Notes under the pieces: model-generated | What the model was told of the DNA's origin: nothing | Database searches by the model: none | Seen by the model: only the letters and a program-made list of their open reading frames with translations | Source: an uncultured Verrucomicrobiota bacterium | GTDB lineage: Bacteria > Verrucomicrobiota > Verrucomicrobiia > Limisphaerales > UBA9464 | Assembly: GCA_903907925.1 (NCBI GenBank) | Contig: CAIVQB010000085.1 | Location: 1 to 64,000 of the forward strand | Length of the DNA: 64,000 nucleotides | Reading direction: 5' to 3' | Translations under genes and position numbers: made by a program | Part shown: piece by piece, positions 2,084 through 8,471 of the stretch | How the letters are laid out: each line of letters begins with the position of its first letter | Numbering within the stretch: position 1 is the first letter of the stretch

Positions 2084-2752
2084 TTATTTCAGGCTGCCAC
2101 CCTTGGAGGGCGTCAGCAGGATGAATTCGCCGCGGCGATTCTTCGACCAGGCGGCTTCGTCATGGCCCGGATCAGCGGGGCGATCCTCGCCGTAGCTGAT
2201 GGTGGTGACGCGCTCGCCGGAGATGCCGGCACCGACCACCAGCTCGCGAAGAGCCAGCGCCCGACGCTCGCCGAGCGCCCGGTTGTACTCCTCGGTTCCG
2301 CGCTCATCGCAATGGCCTTCGATCAGCAGGTTATTGTCCGGATGAGATTTAAGGAACTCGATCACGGCGGGAATCTTGGACGATTCCGAGGAATTAAACG
2401 TGGCCTTGTCGAAATAGAAATAGACGGTGTTGGACTTGAAGGTCTCGCGATCCTCGTCCTTTCCGGCACGCGGATCACCGGTCGGCAGCGCGGACGGATC
2501 ACCAGTGCCCAACCCTTTTCCGTTGGTGAGATCGATCGGAGCCGGATTGGTCGCGCCGCCGAACTTGGCACCATTCGGGCCACCGTTGCGAATCGGGCCG
2601 CCGTTGCCCAAATCGCCACCCCCTGGAGCGCCGCTATTGCTCAAGCCTCCCGCTGGAATGGGTGTGATGTGTCCGGGCTTTTTGGTGCAACCAGTAACAA
2701 CCGCGGTGGCGGCAATCAATGCAATGAGACCAAGCTTGGTCAGACGATTCAT
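2084..2752 (-). CDS. pal: Peptidoglycan-associated lipoprotein Pal (OmpA C-terminal domain)
   Basis: Lipobox VTGC; IEGHCDERGTEEYNRALGERRA; downstream of tolB. Confidence 0.92.
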   Translation of the reverse strand: MNRLTKLGLIALIAATAVVTGCTKKPGHITPIPAGGLSNSGAPGGGDLGNGGPIRNGGPNGAKFGGATNPAPIDLTNGKGLGTGDPSALPTGDPRAGKDEDRETFKSNTVYFYFDKATFNSSESSKIPAVIEFLKSHPDNNLLIEGHCDERGTEEYNRALGERRALALRELVVGAGISGERVTTISYGEDRPADPGHDEAAWSKNRRGEFILLTPSKGGSLK

Positions 2753-2779: not shown

Positions 2780-3943
2780 CTACCTGGCCCAGCTCGGCTG
2801 GGAGGAACTCCCCGAAATTCGGTTGACATCCTTGACGCGGCGCGTGGGCACGTCAAGCAGCGACAGTCGCCGTGCACCATCTCGTCCGCGCGTAAACACA
2901 ATCGTCCGCGAATTCGGTGCCCACGAGGGATCCTCACCCGCCGTCAACGGCTCGGCCTGTCCTCCCGCCGCCGGCACCACGTAAATCGTGAATTCGCCCA
3001 CCGCGCGGGAGAAGGCGATCCATTTCCCGTCCGGCGACCAGTCGGGTTCGGTGGCCGGAAGGATGCCGCCGGTGGGCAGCTTCCGCATTTCACCGCCGGC
3101 CGCGGGAATCGTGAACAACGCCGCCCGCCCGTCGCGGGTCGACGCAAAACACAGCGTCCGGCTGTCCGGCGACCAACACGGGGACGACTCGGGTTCGAGC
3201 GTGTGGGTCAACTGGCGCAAACCGGACCCATCGACATTGGCCACCCAGAGATCGGGACTGCCCGATTTGCTGAGGATCACGGCTACATGGGTTCCATCCG
3301 GCGAAACGACCGCTCCACTGTTGAGCCCGTTGAATCCAAACACCCGGGTGCGAGTGCCGGTCTGAAGATCGTGGCTGTACACGTCCGGATTTCCCGAGCG
3401 ATAGCTGGTGTAGAACAGCTTCAACTTTCCCGGAACCCAGGCCGGCGACGCGGCAATCGAATGATCTTCAGTGGCCCGGAACGGATTACCGCCGTCGTAG
3501 TCGCTCACGTAGATCTCCTTGGTTCGGCCCTGATCGATCTTGTAGGCGATGCGAGTGCGGGCGATCCCCGGCTGACCAGTCACCGCCTTCACCACGTCAT
3601 CCGCCAGCATGTGGGCTTGAGCACGCGGTGTTCCGCCGGGATAGGCCCGCGCAAACAGGGGATGATGGTTGCCGGTGTCGGTCAGAGTTCCCTGAAGATT
3701 CCCATTGTTGGCACCAGCGACTTCGTATTGCGCGGAGGCTACCGGAACGACGTCGAAGCCGGCCACTTCGAGGTCGAAACGCAGCACCTGACCGGACTCC
3801 CCGGAGAATCCCGTGAGGGCGATGGGAATGGTTTTTTGCGCTCGCTCGCTGATCCGGATCACCCCGGAATCATCGGCCGCATGGATCAGGCTGACCGTGG
3901 TGGCGAGCACCAGGGCCAACCGCGTTGGCAGGGAGAGGTTCAT
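2780..3943 (-). CDS. tolB: Tol-Pal system beta-propeller protein TolB
   Basis: Signal peptide, WD40-like PD40 repeats (PDWSPDGKWIAFS), operon position. Confidence 0.92.
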   Translation of the reverse strand: MNLSLPTRLALVLATTVSLIHAADDSGVIRISERAQKTIPIALTGFSGESGQVLRFDLEVAGFDVVPVASAQYEVAGANNGNLQGTLTDTGNHHPLFARAYPGGTPRAQAHMLADDVVKAVTGQPGIARTRIAYKIDQGRTKEIYVSDYDGGNPFRATEDHSIAASPAWVPGKLKLFYTSYRSGNPDVYSHDLQTGTRTRVFGFNGLNSGAVVSPDGTHVAVILSKSGSPDLWVANVDGSGLRQLTHTLEPESSPCWSPDSRTLCFASTRDGRAALFTIPAAGGEMRKLPTGGILPATEPDWSPDGKWIAFSRAVGEFTIYVVPAAGGQAEPLTAGEDPSWAPNSRTIVFTRGRDGARRLSLLDVPTRRVKDVNRISGSSSQPSWAR

Positions 3944-4923
3944 GTCGAAGAGTCGGCTTCCAGTGTAAATACGATTTTGAAAGTACGTTGGGGATCGGTC
4001 GAGCCCTCGGGCAGCGGGAGCAGTTTGGGATACCGCTGAATGAGGTCCTTGATGGATTGATCCAGATCACGGAACCCGGAGCCTTGGACCACCCGCCAGT
4101 CCGCCAGCCGTCCGTCGCGCGCGATGACGATCTCCACGGTGACCCCGGCCGAGGCCGCGGCAATGGACGTCGGCTTGCGCCAGCGTTCCTTGTAGAAGGC
4201 CGCCAGATACGAGCGGTAGGGAGCATAGGCCTGCCCACCGGGGCCGGGCATTTCGATCTGGGTGGAACCGGAAACGGATTTCCCGACGGCCTCGGCCGCT
4301 CCACCAATCTGGCTGGCCATCTTCTGGCGGTCGGCATTGAGCCGCGCAATCTGGGCGGACCGCGCTTTTCGCCGATTCTCCGCCTCCACCTCGGCCGCGG
4401 CTTCGTCGGCTTCACGTTGCTGGGCGGCCAATTCCGCGCGGTTCAACTTCTTCGGCGCCTCGGTGGTATGAATCGTGTCCGCGGTTTGAATCGGTTTCTT
4501 CGGCTTCTTCTTGATCGCTGGATCGGTGTCCTGCGAATGCAACTCGGGGTTCAACTTGACCTGCGGATCCGCCGGGACCGGTCGGACTTTCAGCGGGGTC
4601 TCCACCTTCTTTTCCACCTTATCGGACTTGTCGGGTTCGGGGTCGGGTTTCTTCGGCTCGGGCTTCGGCTGGGGCTTTGTCTCCGGGATCGGTGCCGGAG
4701 GCTGCGTCGTCTTGGGAAGCGGTGATCGCACCGGAGGTTTGGCGTCAGGATTTCCACCCCCCACCTTGTCGCCGTCGGTCACCTTCAGATCGGTGGGGAT
4801 CATGGTGAGGACCTGCACCGTCGGCGGCGTGGAGGTCCCCTTCGGTGCCAGGAGAAACAGCATCAGGAGCGCGGCGTGGAAGCCGAACGACCCAAACAGA
4901 CACTGTTGTTCGACACGAACCAT
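3940..4923 (-). CDS. TolA/TonB-like energy transducer
   Basis: N-terminal TM, Lys/Pro-rich linker, TonB-like C-terminal domain; 4-nt ATGA overlap with tolB. Confidence 0.8.
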   Translation of the reverse strand: MVRVEQQCLFGSFGFHAALLMLFLLAPKGTSTPPTVQVLTMIPTDLKVTDGDKVGGGNPDAKPPVRSPLPKTTQPPAPIPETKPQPKPEPKKPDPEPDKSDKVEKKVETPLKVRPVPADPQVKLNPELHSQDTDPAIKKKPKKPIQTADTIHTTEAPKKLNRAELAAQQREADEAAAEVEAENRRKARSAQIARLNADRQKMASQIGGAAEAVGKSVSGSTQIEMPGPGGQAYAPYRSYLAAFYKERWRKPTSIAAASAGVTVEIVIARDGRLADWRVVQGSGFRDLDQSIKDLIQRYPKLLPLPEGSTDPQRTFKIVFTLEADSST

Positions 4924-4927
4924 GGGG

Positions 4928-5350
4928 TCACCGGTGCGGTTCCGGTTCGGTGGCGATGTCGAACCGGGTGATACCGTTGCGCTTGCAGATGTCGAGAATG
5001 GTGATCGGCAGCCGGTAGGCCCCGCTGGCGTCGGCCCGAATCCGAACGATCATCTTGGGATTCTTCCGGTATTCAGCGACGAGCAACCGTTCCATTTCGG
5101 CCACCGACTGGAGGCGATGGCCCTTAAAATAGTAGACGCCGGCGGGACTGACCTCGGCCGTCACCCGGTCGGAAAGGTTTCCGGCCTCCTTGGAATCACC
5201 GCCGTTGGGCAGGCGGACACTGATGCTTTGTTCGAGCAGCGGCGTGGTGATGATGAAGATGATCAACAGCACGAACGCCAGATCGAGCAGCGGCGTGATG
5301 TTGATGTCGTTCAACGTCACCAGTTGGTTGCGGGAGGAGAAGCGGCGCAT
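4928..5350 (-). CDS. tolR: ExbD/TolR biopolymer transport protein
   Basis: INITPLLDLAFVLLIIFIITTPLLEQSI. Confidence 0.92.
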   Translation of the reverse strand: MRRFSSRNQLVTLNDINITPLLDLAFVLLIIFIITTPLLEQSISVRLPNGGDSKEAGNLSDRVTAEVSPAGVYYFKGHRLQSVAEMERLLVAEYRKNPKMIVRIRADASGAYRLPITILDICKRNGITRFDIATEPEPHR

Positions 5351-5368: not shown

Positions 5369-7156
5369 TCACCACAAACGCGGCAGGCGGAATCCGGCCC
5401 ACCATAGGGCCCCGCCCGCCACCAGCAACACCACCACCGCGCCCACGATGATGGCCACTACATTGGCCGGGGCGCGATCGGGTCCGGACTTCAGCCGCTC
5501 ACCCACCGACCGCTGGAGCCGGCGACGGCACCGCTCGCAGCGGGCCAGGACCCGGAGATTCCGATGATGGCACCGGCGGCATTCGACGTAGAGATCGGCG
5601 TCACAGGTCTCGCAGAATTCCAGATCCGCCGGGTTTAAGTGTTCGCACTTCTGGCACAAGACTCCCCGGCCCTTTTCGCGGGAATTGTCAAGAAGATCGC
5701 GGTGTTCCGGGGCGGTTCCCCGGCAGCCGGCGCATTCCGTGACCACCGCGGGACGGGTGGTGTGGCATTCGGGACATTCGACGAACAGGGCCCGGCCACA
5801 GGTCTCACAGGCGTCGAGCCCAGTCGGGTTCAGATGATCGCAGCCGGCACACAAAACGGCCCGTCCCTTCGGTCCCGATTCCAATTGAGCGAGCGCCCGG
5901 GCCCGCTCCTTCGCTTCACAGGCGGTACATTCCACCCGCACGGCCGGTTTCTCCCGGTCGCAATTCGGGCAGATGTCGAACAGGGCCTCCTGACAGGTTT
6001 CGCATTCCCGCAAGCCAAGCGGATTCAGGTGCTCGCAGTGGGCGCAGAGGATTCCGCGGCCCGCCGGACGCAATTCCTCCGCGGTCAGGGGCTGGGGTTT
6101 CGATTGCGGTTGCGGATCAGGCGGCCTGAGGGCGGCCAGCGAGGCGCAGGACAAACATCGGCTGGAATTGCGCGCCTTGGATTTTCCACACCGTTTGCAG
6201 GTCTCGAACAGTGCGGAATTGCAGGTTTCACAGACCTCGAGACCTCGAGGATTCAAATGATCGCATTTGGCGCACAAGACGCCACGACCCGACGGACGGG
6301 CTTCGATCAACACCGGTACCGGGGGTGCCGCCAGCGGATGGCAGACCGGGCATTGCTCCAGCACCTGCGGCCGGGGAGTACTGCACTTTTTGCACACCAC
6401 AAACAGCGGTGAATTGCAGGTCTCACACTTCTCCAAACCCTGGGGATTCAAGTGTTCGCATTGGGCGCAAAGGACGCCACGGCCGGCCTTCCCGACCGGG
6501 GCCAGATCGACGATCCGGGGAAGTTCCGGCGGTTGGCAGGACGGGCAGTTCCGCTGATTTCGCGGACGGGATTTGCCACAATTGCGGCACACGGAAAACA
6601 GCGCGCGGTGACACACCTCGCATTCCGCGATTCCGGATGGATTCAGGTGATCACATTCGGAACACAGGACCCCGCGGCCCGCAGGCAGGGCCATGGCCGG
6701 TGCCGGGGTCAGATTTCGACGACGACGGGCCGTTTCGCAGTTCGGACAGGTCTTGATGACCTTGGGGCGGCGTTCACCACAATCAGCGCATTCCACGTAC
6801 AACGCATCACCGCAGCGTTCACACGTCTCCGACCCGGCCGGACTGAGCCGGTCGCAACGCTGACACAGCACCGCCTTTCCCCGCGGGGCATCGGTGGGGG
6901 CCGGCAGTTCCGGAACCACCACCGGCGGCTCGCAAACCACACAACGCCGGGTGACCCGGGCCTTGGGGGTGCCGCATTCGGGGCAGTCCTCGTACAACTC
7001 GGTGCCACAATTCAGGCAACGCTCGGTCCCCACCGGGCTGAGGGTCTCGCACTTGCCACAAAGCACGGCCGGACCGGCCGGACCAGTGATCGGTTCGAAT
7101 CCCTCCCGGTGCCTCCGACGGCGCGAGGATTTCCGACTTGTCTGCGGATCACTCAT
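5369..7156 (-). CDS. Octa-repeat double zinc-ribbon protein with C-terminal TM anchor
   Basis: Eight ~50-60 aa repeats GRGVLCxxCxHLNPxGLxxCETCxxxLFxxCxxCxxxxxxxxxxCxxC, then VVAIIVGAVVVLLVAGGALWWAGF; ATGAGTGA overlap with tolQ. Confidence 0.9.
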   Translation of the reverse strand: MSDPQTSRKSSRRRRHREGFEPITGPAGPAVLCGKCETLSPVGTERCLNCGTELYEDCPECGTPKARVTRRCVVCEPPVVVPELPAPTDAPRGKAVLCQRCDRLSPAGSETCERCGDALYVECADCGERRPKVIKTCPNCETARRRRNLTPAPAMALPAGRGVLCSECDHLNPSGIAECEVCHRALFSVCRNCGKSRPRNQRNCPSCQPPELPRIVDLAPVGKAGRGVLCAQCEHLNPQGLEKCETCNSPLFVVCKKCSTPRPQVLEQCPVCHPLAAPPVPVLIEARPSGRGVLCAKCDHLNPRGLEVCETCNSALFETCKRCGKSKARNSSRCLSCASLAALRPPDPQPQSKPQPLTAEELRPAGRGILCAHCEHLNPLGLRECETCQEALFDICPNCDREKPAVRVECTACEAKERARALAQLESGPKGRAVLCAGCDHLNPTGLDACETCGRALFVECPECHTTRPAVVTECAGCRGTAPEHRDLLDNSREKGRGVLCQKCEHLNPADLEFCETCDADLYVECRRCHHRNLRVLARCERCRRRLQRSVGERLKSGPDRAPANVVAIIVGAVVVLLVAGGALWWAGFRLPRLW

Positions 7157-7883
7157 CGTCCTTGAGGAATTCCGTCTCCATGCGCGAGGCCAGGCTCTGG
7201 GCGAAATTGTCCAGTTCCACGGTCAGCACGCGCAGATTATGCACCAGCCAGTTATAACCGAACATCGACGGGATCGCCACCAGCAGACCGGCGACCGTGG
7301 TGATCAACGCCGCGGAAACGCCGGGTGCCATGGCGGCGAGATCAGCCCGGTTTCCGTTGCTGGCCGCCATCGCGACACTCCCGAAGGCGTCCATCACGCC
7401 CCAGACCGTCCCGAGCAGGCCGAGGAAGGGGGATCCGCTGACGGCCACGGCAAGCAGGACCAGGCCGGATTCCAGTTTCAACGCCTCGCGGGAAACGGCG
7501 CCTTCGAGGGCCCGTTTGACGTGCTCCATCATCTTGAGCGAGGCGTGGCGGCGGCGGGTGCCGTCGGCGGTTTGCAGGCTGCCTTGAAGGTCGGTGCACC
7601 CCTCCTGATACACGACAAACAAGGGGCAGCCGTCCACCGGAAGGTGACGGTCGAAGATTCCGAACACCGACTTCTGGGCGCGGAATTCAGCGTCGAAATA
7701 ATGATTGAGCCGGCGGGCCCTCCTCATTTGCAGGGCTTTGGAGGCCATCACCGACCAGGCGAACACCGAAAAAATCATCAGGACCACGATGATGACTTTT
7801 GCCTCCGGGGTGGCCTTCCCCCAGATGTAAGTGAGCCTCATGCCGCTTTCGGCGGCCATCAGAGGCCCGGTAGGCAGGTTCAT
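7149..7883 (-). CDS. tolQ: MotA/TolQ/ExbB proton channel family protein
   Basis: LLGTVWGVMDAFGSVAM...ISAALITTVAGLLVAIPSMFGYNWL type signature; start trimmed to ATG at 7883. Confidence 0.9.
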   Translation of the reverse strand: MNLPTGPLMAAESGMRLTYIWGKATPEAKVIIVVLMIFSVFAWSVMASKALQMRRARRLNHYFDAEFRAQKSVFGIFDRHLPVDGCPLFVVYQEGCTDLQGSLQTADGTRRRHASLKMMEHVKRALEGAVSREALKLESGLVLLAVAVSGSPFLGLLGTVWGVMDAFGSVAMAASNGNRADLAAMAPGVSAALITTVAGLLVAIPSMFGYNWLVHNLRVLTVELDNFAQSLASRMETEFLKDDE

Positions 7884-8012: not shown

Positions 8013-8471
8013 TCAACCGGCCTGATTCCGGCGATGAAATCGGAGAAAATCCTTCAACTGATCAGGACGCGAACGCCAGAACTCCACCAGGGATGTGAAG
8101 GCCGCCAGCGTCGCCGGCTTGAGATGATGCTCAATGTCCTCAACCTCCGCGGCGATGGTGTCCGACTCGAGACCGAGTTGCTCGAGCAGGGCCGACAGCG
8201 TCCGGTGACGTTTCTTGATGTGACGCGCCACCGCGCGGCCCTCCGCGGTCAGCGTCAATCCGCGGTACCGTTCGTAGTTTACGAAGCCCCGCGCCGCGAG
8301 CCGGCGGACCATGTTGGAGACTGTCGAACGCCGGAGCCCGAGCGATTCGGCGATGTCGGTGACGCGCGCGTAGCCCTTCGATTCCACAAGCTCGTCAATG
8401 CGCTCCAGGTGGTCCTCGGTGGACTCGGAACGCCGCGCCGCGGCGCGGCGGGAGTTGGAGGCGGATGGCAC
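8013..8471 (-). CDS. mntR: DtxR/MntR family metal-dependent transcriptional regulator
   Basis: EDHLERIDELVESKGYARVTDIAESLGLRRSTVSNMVRRLAARGFVNYERYRGLTLTAEG; GTG start; divergent from porin-mntH. Confidence 0.88.
   Translation of the reverse strand: MPSASNSRRAAARRSESTEDHLERIDELVESKGYARVTDIAESLGLRRSTVSNMVRRLAARGFVNYERYRGLTLTAEGRAVARHIKKRHRTLSALLEQLGLESDTIAAEVEDIEHHLKPATLAAFTSLVEFWRSRPDQLKDFLRFHRRNQAG

Follow-up and report, generated by a model that had tools for sequence, protein, structure and literature searches.

A recurrent membrane-anchored zinc-knuckle protein encoded between tolQ and tolR in Limisphaerales, a probable undescribed component or helper of the Tol motor

Introduction

The tol operon of an uncultured Verrucomicrobiota bacterium contains, between tolQ and tolR, a gene for a membrane-anchored protein with an array of predicted zinc knuckles, and homologues occupy the same place in other members of the order Limisphaerales (also named Verrucomicrobia subdivision 3 or Pedosphaerales). 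It is probable that the encoded protein serves the Tol motor on its cytoplasmic side, as an undescribed component or helper. The Tol machine holds the outer membrane attached during division, and Tol-Pal has been described as an inner-membrane motor that acts outward on the envelope; to our knowledge, its steering from the cytoplasm is poorly understood. The knuckle protein represents a concrete candidate for such cytoplasmic control and, since close relatives lack the gene, a natural comparison is available. It also illustrates, in a simple form, how a binding array has grown by the addition of units onto an anchored ancestor. The present analysis followed up a first-pass annotation of the window, i.e. 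the whole stretch of 64,000 nucleotides that was analysed.

The knuckle gene and its operon

The open reading frame with the ATG start was confirmed as a real gene (Table 1). All 64 cysteines of its 595-residue product lie within 32 CxxC motifs and none outside them. The motifs are grouped into eight units that are spaced 65 to 76 residues apart, with four CxxC motifs, and hence eight cysteines, in each unit. The Pfam family PF12773 ('Double zinc ribbon') matched eight stretches of the protein with an E-value of 1.2e-36 and 125.1 bits, which exceeds the gathering score of 27.3 bits. The units are followed by a single hydrophobic helix and a tail of nine residues. The coordinates and counts of the first-pass annotation (eight repeats, the CxxC pattern, the helix and the overlap with tolQ) were all correct on re-examination.

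Table 1. Features of the knuckle gene and of the surrounding tol genes in the window.
Feature	Position	Strand	Remarks
Gene for zinc-knuckle array / single-helix membrane protein	5369..7156	-	595 aa, 64 Cys
Unit 1, aa 29-75	6932..7072	-	two CxxC-x10-CxxC knuckles
Unit 2, aa 94-140	6737..6877	-	
Unit 3, aa 161-207	6536..6676	-	
Unit 4, aa 226-272	6341..6481	-	
Unit 5, aa 291-337	6146..6286	-	
Unit 6, aa 367-413	5918..6058	-	
Unit 7, aa 432-478	5723..5863	-	
Unit 8, aa 497-543, membrane-proximal	5528..5668	-	counterpart of the lone unit in most homologues
Predicted transmembrane helix, aa 564-586	5399..5467	-	AlphaFold helix and hydropathy
C-terminal tail, predicted periplasmic	5372..5398	-	ends LPRLW
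Overlap of tolQ stop and knuckle-gene start	7149..7156	-	ATGAGTGA, 8 nt
tolQ, MotA/TolQ/ExbB family	7149..7883	-	Pfam/NCBIfam
tolR, ExbD/TolR family	4928..5350	-	Pfam/NCBIfam
tolA, TonB_2 / TonB_C C-terminal domain	3940..4923	-	Pfam/NCBIfam
tolB	2780..3943	-	Pfam/NCBIfam
pal	2084..2752	-	Pfam/NCBIfam

On one strand, the operon reads tolQ, the knuckle gene, tolR, tolA, tolB and pal, followed by tatA and tatC. By inspection, TolR of the window has an aspartate (in DLAFVLLIIF), TolQ has threonines (in GLLGTVWG and ITTVAGLL) and the helix of TolA contains a histidine, all of which we take to be the residues needed by the motor. A gene for an MntR/DtxR-type metalloregulator (8013-8471, minus strand) is located directly upstream of tolQ.

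The start of the knuckle gene shares eight nucleotides with the end of tolQ, which reads GAC GAT GAG TGA. Across 28 loci, the start of the gene was always located at most 15 nucleotides from the tolQ stop (28/28) and overlapped it in 18, where it should be noted that the choice of starts in this comparison was biased toward the one nearest the tolQ stop. This is in keeping with the earlier proposal of translational coupling to tolQ, which is probable.

All 64 cysteines are kept in a second species (G007; 63% identity), and the omega values of 0.12-0.22 in seven species pairs reflect purifying selection on the knuckle gene. The gene is therefore not a product of chance. In the same pairs, tolQ had an omega lower by a factor of about 1.5 to 5, but the values of the knuckle gene were still well under 1. 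Together with the synteny described below, the cysteine conservation and omega rule out a chance or shadow open reading frame. The long open reading frames that overlie the gene on the plus strand were instead read as shadow frames of G+C-rich coding DNA. Likewise, an insertion unique to one genome was ruled out by the presence of homologues in relatives.

Distribution and synteny

A search with the whole protein in 58 relatives yielded matches in 32 genomes. In all 29 fetched loci with readable flanks (L001-L029), the knuckle gene lay at the tolQ-tolR junction and shared the strand of the tol genes; in one of them the contig starts within the knuckle gene, before tolQ is reached, and the gene directly precedes tolR. 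For wider searches, a profile was built from the last unit and the helix (alignment A1). This profile matched 40 of the 50 genomes of the family, a few of them through a small soluble relative, and 102 of the 293 genomes of the order. Furthermore, 23 of the 79 readable loci found through a named tolQ gene hold the knuckle gene at the tolQ-tolR junction, and 34 of the 38 further profile matches that were fetched adjoin tolQ and/or tolR. Altogether, the gene was found in the tol operons of 93 sampled whole genomes from 15 families of the Limisphaerales. No match to it was detected at the R-A, A-B and B-pal junctions of the tol loci examined.

Membership of the tol operon, as suggested by the first-pass annotation, is thus genuine and recurrent, and the homologues at the junction contradict the notion that all relatives might lack the gene in their tol operons. 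The suggested co-occurrence across the Verrucomicrobiota held within the Limisphaerales but not elsewhere, since the 288 sampled genomes from other parts of the phylum gave only four weak matches, none of them at a tol locus. A phylum-wide distribution is therefore ruled out.

Many intact tol operons of the same order and family lack the knuckle gene and have tolQ adjoining an ordinary tolR. This indicates that the gene is accessory rather than a core Tol component, and that Tol as such can do without it. On a tree of TolQ and TolR, presence and absence of the gene require 13 changes, compared to 43 on average when the labels are shuffled, although this tree cannot separate gain from loss. The presence pattern is clustered and rarely switching, in keeping with an old gene that has been lost repeatedly; horizontal transfer may be an alternative.

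In three loci, namely L043 (G043), L155 and L157, a gene of the 23S rRNA IVP family (PF05635) occupies the tolQ-tolR junction and the zinc-knuckle gene is absent. The assignment rests on a Pfam match in L043 and on sequence likeness in the other two.

Paralogues with the same knuckle-helix architecture were encountered away from tol in G371, G373, G388, G416, G467 and G484, and the design is therefore not specific to Tol. A comparison of their neighbours revealed no shared partner, and prepilin-like N_methyl proteins that recurred nearby were dismissed as merely common genes. Two of the non-tol paralogues (L196, 2479-3687; L202, 105-1676) carry a long domain behind the helix, which is predicted to lie outside the cytoplasm and had no Pfam match. 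The small soluble relative, of 80-105 residues with one knuckle pair and no membrane helix, is encoded elsewhere in the genome of the window and in its family (L056, at G000:C60:25805-25975, L054, L057 and L060-L062). Its neighbour in G000 is a DUF3892 gene, which is conserved in G007 as well.

Topology and fold

A clear membrane helix was present in 68 of 69 homologues, the exception being L216 (G459), which may have suffered a frameshift or be genuinely soluble. On average, the region before the helix contains 7.1 K/R and 1.4 D/E, and the tail behind it 1.6 K/R and 0.8 D/E. The net positive charge was higher before the helix in 63 of the 68 homologues, and the knuckles should therefore face the cytoplasm. 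This agrees with the tail-anchored, cytoplasm-facing arrangement put forward earlier, and a single-pass, C-terminally anchored topology is predicted.

AlphaFold modelled the last unit and the helix with a mean pLDDT of 83 and the knuckle pair at above 90, the helix spanning residues 70-92 of this module. The full-length model (pTM 0.18) resembles beads on a string, of which only the local folds are usable, and the linkers between the knuckle pairs are flexible and proline-rich. In a Foldseek search against the PDB, single knuckles superposed on zinc fingers of the NZF/RanBP2 type, at best with 0.3-0.6 Å rmsd. The best matches included NZF1 of Trabid (4s1z; 24 residues, 0.3 Å, target TM 0.89) and Nup153 (3gj4), and TAB3 (3a9k) and ZRANB2 (3g9y) matched as well. 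Target TM values were 0.8-0.9 over 24-29 residues, with E-values above 0.5 that are non-significant because the knuckle element is tiny. Sequence searches pointed to the NZF/RanBP2 class plus eL40 and DZANK1 (E 0.005-0.1). Judged from these models, each unit is composed of two NZF/RanBP2-like zinc knuckles.

The spacing CxxC-x3-N-x6-CxxC was observed in 97 of the 123 knuckles of that length. Its asparagine occurs in 57 of the 62 first knuckles and in 40 of the 62 second ones. Apart from the cysteines, the conserved positions of the unit are H6, L7, N8, P9 and L22, and H-L-N-P directly follows the second cysteine in the first knuckle of most units. In NZF fingers, ligand-binding residues sit just after the second cysteine. 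Since the position of HLNP matches this site, we infer a repeated binding face along the array. The knuckles presumably hold zinc in a structural rather than a sensing role. The 16 four-cysteine sites of the window protein would accommodate up to 16 Zn per chain if all were filled, which is the number given in the first-pass annotation.

Unit number and evolution

The typical homologue is only 106-144 residues long and consists of one two-knuckle unit, a basic stretch, one helix and a short tail. Genus g3 and G003/G005 have three units, the window and G007 have eight, and the truncated G001 locus retains at least six complete ones. Both the three-unit and the eight-unit forms occur in the genus of the window. 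In family f87 (L129, L225, L226), two tandem one-unit knuckle-helix genes lie at the tolQ-tolR junction. The eight repeats are thus a lineage-specific expansion of a normally one-unit protein, in which the membrane-proximal unit is the counterpart of the single-unit homologues and the extra units were added N-terminally. Multivalency arose by several routes, either by unit addition or, in f87, by a second gene copy.

When the window was compared with G007, 7 of 8 units had their nearest counterpart at the corresponding position of the other protein, the mean identity being 0.68 in register and 0.48 out of register. In a tree of the units, most of them clustered by position. The in-register similarity implies that the eight-unit form predates the split of the two species without ongoing homogenisation, and homogenisation of the repeats is also ruled out by the unit tree. 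Among the genera of the family, that of the window and several others, though not all, share the tail ending in LPRLW.

Proposed role and alternative explanations

We favour the reading that the knuckle protein is specific to the Limisphaerales and accessory to the TolQR motor, as a subunit or an adaptor that would display its knuckle array to a cytoplasmic partner, and assign this reading a probability of about 0.5. Contact with TolQR, bound zinc and the cytoplasmic partner are all three inferred. The helix would lie beside the helices of TolQ and TolR, and perhaps that of TolA, in the inner membrane, with the knuckles hanging in the cytoplasm and carrying structural zinc. Through its conserved HLNP face, the knuckle protein would bind RNA or another protein in the cytoplasm and could thereby regulate the TolQR motor or serve it as an adaptor for docking. 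Candidates for the docked partner would be the division machinery, a protease or RNA, and extra units or a second gene copy would provide more docking sites. More tentatively, the protein may be an extra Tol subunit through which a cytoplasmic partner is coupled to the TolQR proton motor or to the positioning of this motor at the division site, the repeat number tuning the valence. The main cautions against the subunit reading are the many absences, the IVP-family gene at the junction, the non-tol paralogues and a null result on co-variation: no TolQ or TolR residues co-varied with the presence of the gene beyond ancestry (median sign-test p of 0.25-1 for the best columns).

The same paralogues would be accommodated if the gene were a passenger of the operon, encoding a membrane-anchored knuckle protein with its own job near the membrane, such as binding RNA or ribosomes or helping to assemble membrane proteins. 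The coupling to tolQ would then only set its expression. The NZF/RanBP2 knuckles include RNA binders, such as the ZRANB2 structure among our matches, and eL40 ribosomal proteins matched weakly by sequence. However, a passenger would be expected equally often at other junctions or in other operons, whereas, throughout the 15 families, the Q-R junction is the sole place of the tol-linked copy. In addition, the RNA-binding RanBP2 class carries a characteristic tryptophan that the knuckles lack. On balance, we regard a passenger as rather unlikely.

We give still less credence to the view that the protein is a zinc- or redox-responsive regulator, or a zinc buffer, in which loading or oxidation of the cysteines alters the activity of the Tol motor. 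The 64 cysteines per chain and the metalloregulator gene upstream of tolQ would suit such a function, but the common form, with one unit and eight cysteines, makes no buffer, and both the spacing and the residues that are conserved agree with structural knuckles that present a conserved face for binding. The zinc-responsive partner that had been suggested before is accordingly a weak proposal, as nothing favours zinc sensing over structural zinc. Lastly, a translational spacer or neutral insertion retained by chance, for which the direct adjoining of tolQ and tolR in many relatives and the three loci with an IVP-family gene might speak, is highly improbable, because it is already contradicted by the selection analysis (omega 0.12-0.22, full cysteine conservation) and by the helix in 68/69 homologues and the units that stay in register between species.

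Comparison with known systems

The window contains all five core genes of the Tol-Pal operon in the usual order and on one strand. In Escherichia coli, this operon comprises tolQ-tolR-tolA-tolB-pal with ybgC and cpoB; the window adds a gene between tolQ and tolR. The order of the tol genes is highly conserved except for ybgC and cpoB according to a 2020 review, the main text of which mentions neither zinc nor Verrucomicrobia (PMC7391070). Zinc is also unmentioned in the main text of a 2025 survey of force-transducer operons (PMC12204202), and the terms 'accessory' and 'additional subunit' are absent from the main text of a 2026 motor review (PMC12905483). A zinc protein of the motor is named in none of the three. 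In the main texts of the open-access papers searched, no description of a zinc-knuckle Tol component was found. The same literature yielded no paper that combines zinc ribbon, tolQ and Verrucomicrobia, or Verrucomicrobiota, Tol-Pal and TolQ, and the matches for zinc ribbon with ExbB/ExbD were unrelated as judged by their titles and abstracts.

With respect to spacing and local fold, the knuckles are like the eukaryotic NZF/RanBP2 fingers, which bind ubiquitin, Ran or RNA. They differ from these in being bacterial, in being paired in each unit and in having no tryptophan before the first cysteine. As this tryptophan was not found in any sequence of the homologue alignment, the knuckles were not assigned to the RanBP2 class. 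The modelled likeness is one of fold only and does not imply common ancestry. Similarly, the N-terminal zinc ribbon of the serine/threonine phosphatase PRK14559 (NCBIfam NF011149) resembles one unit of the window protein, but membership of NF011149 was rejected on the basis of 53.4 bits against a cut-off of 374 and the lack of a phosphatase domain. PF12773 (DZR) gave eight significant matches in the window protein, one per unit, and a tail-anchored array of one to eight units in a tol operon is outside the definition of this family. The domain itself is known; its combination and its conserved place in the tol operon are new.
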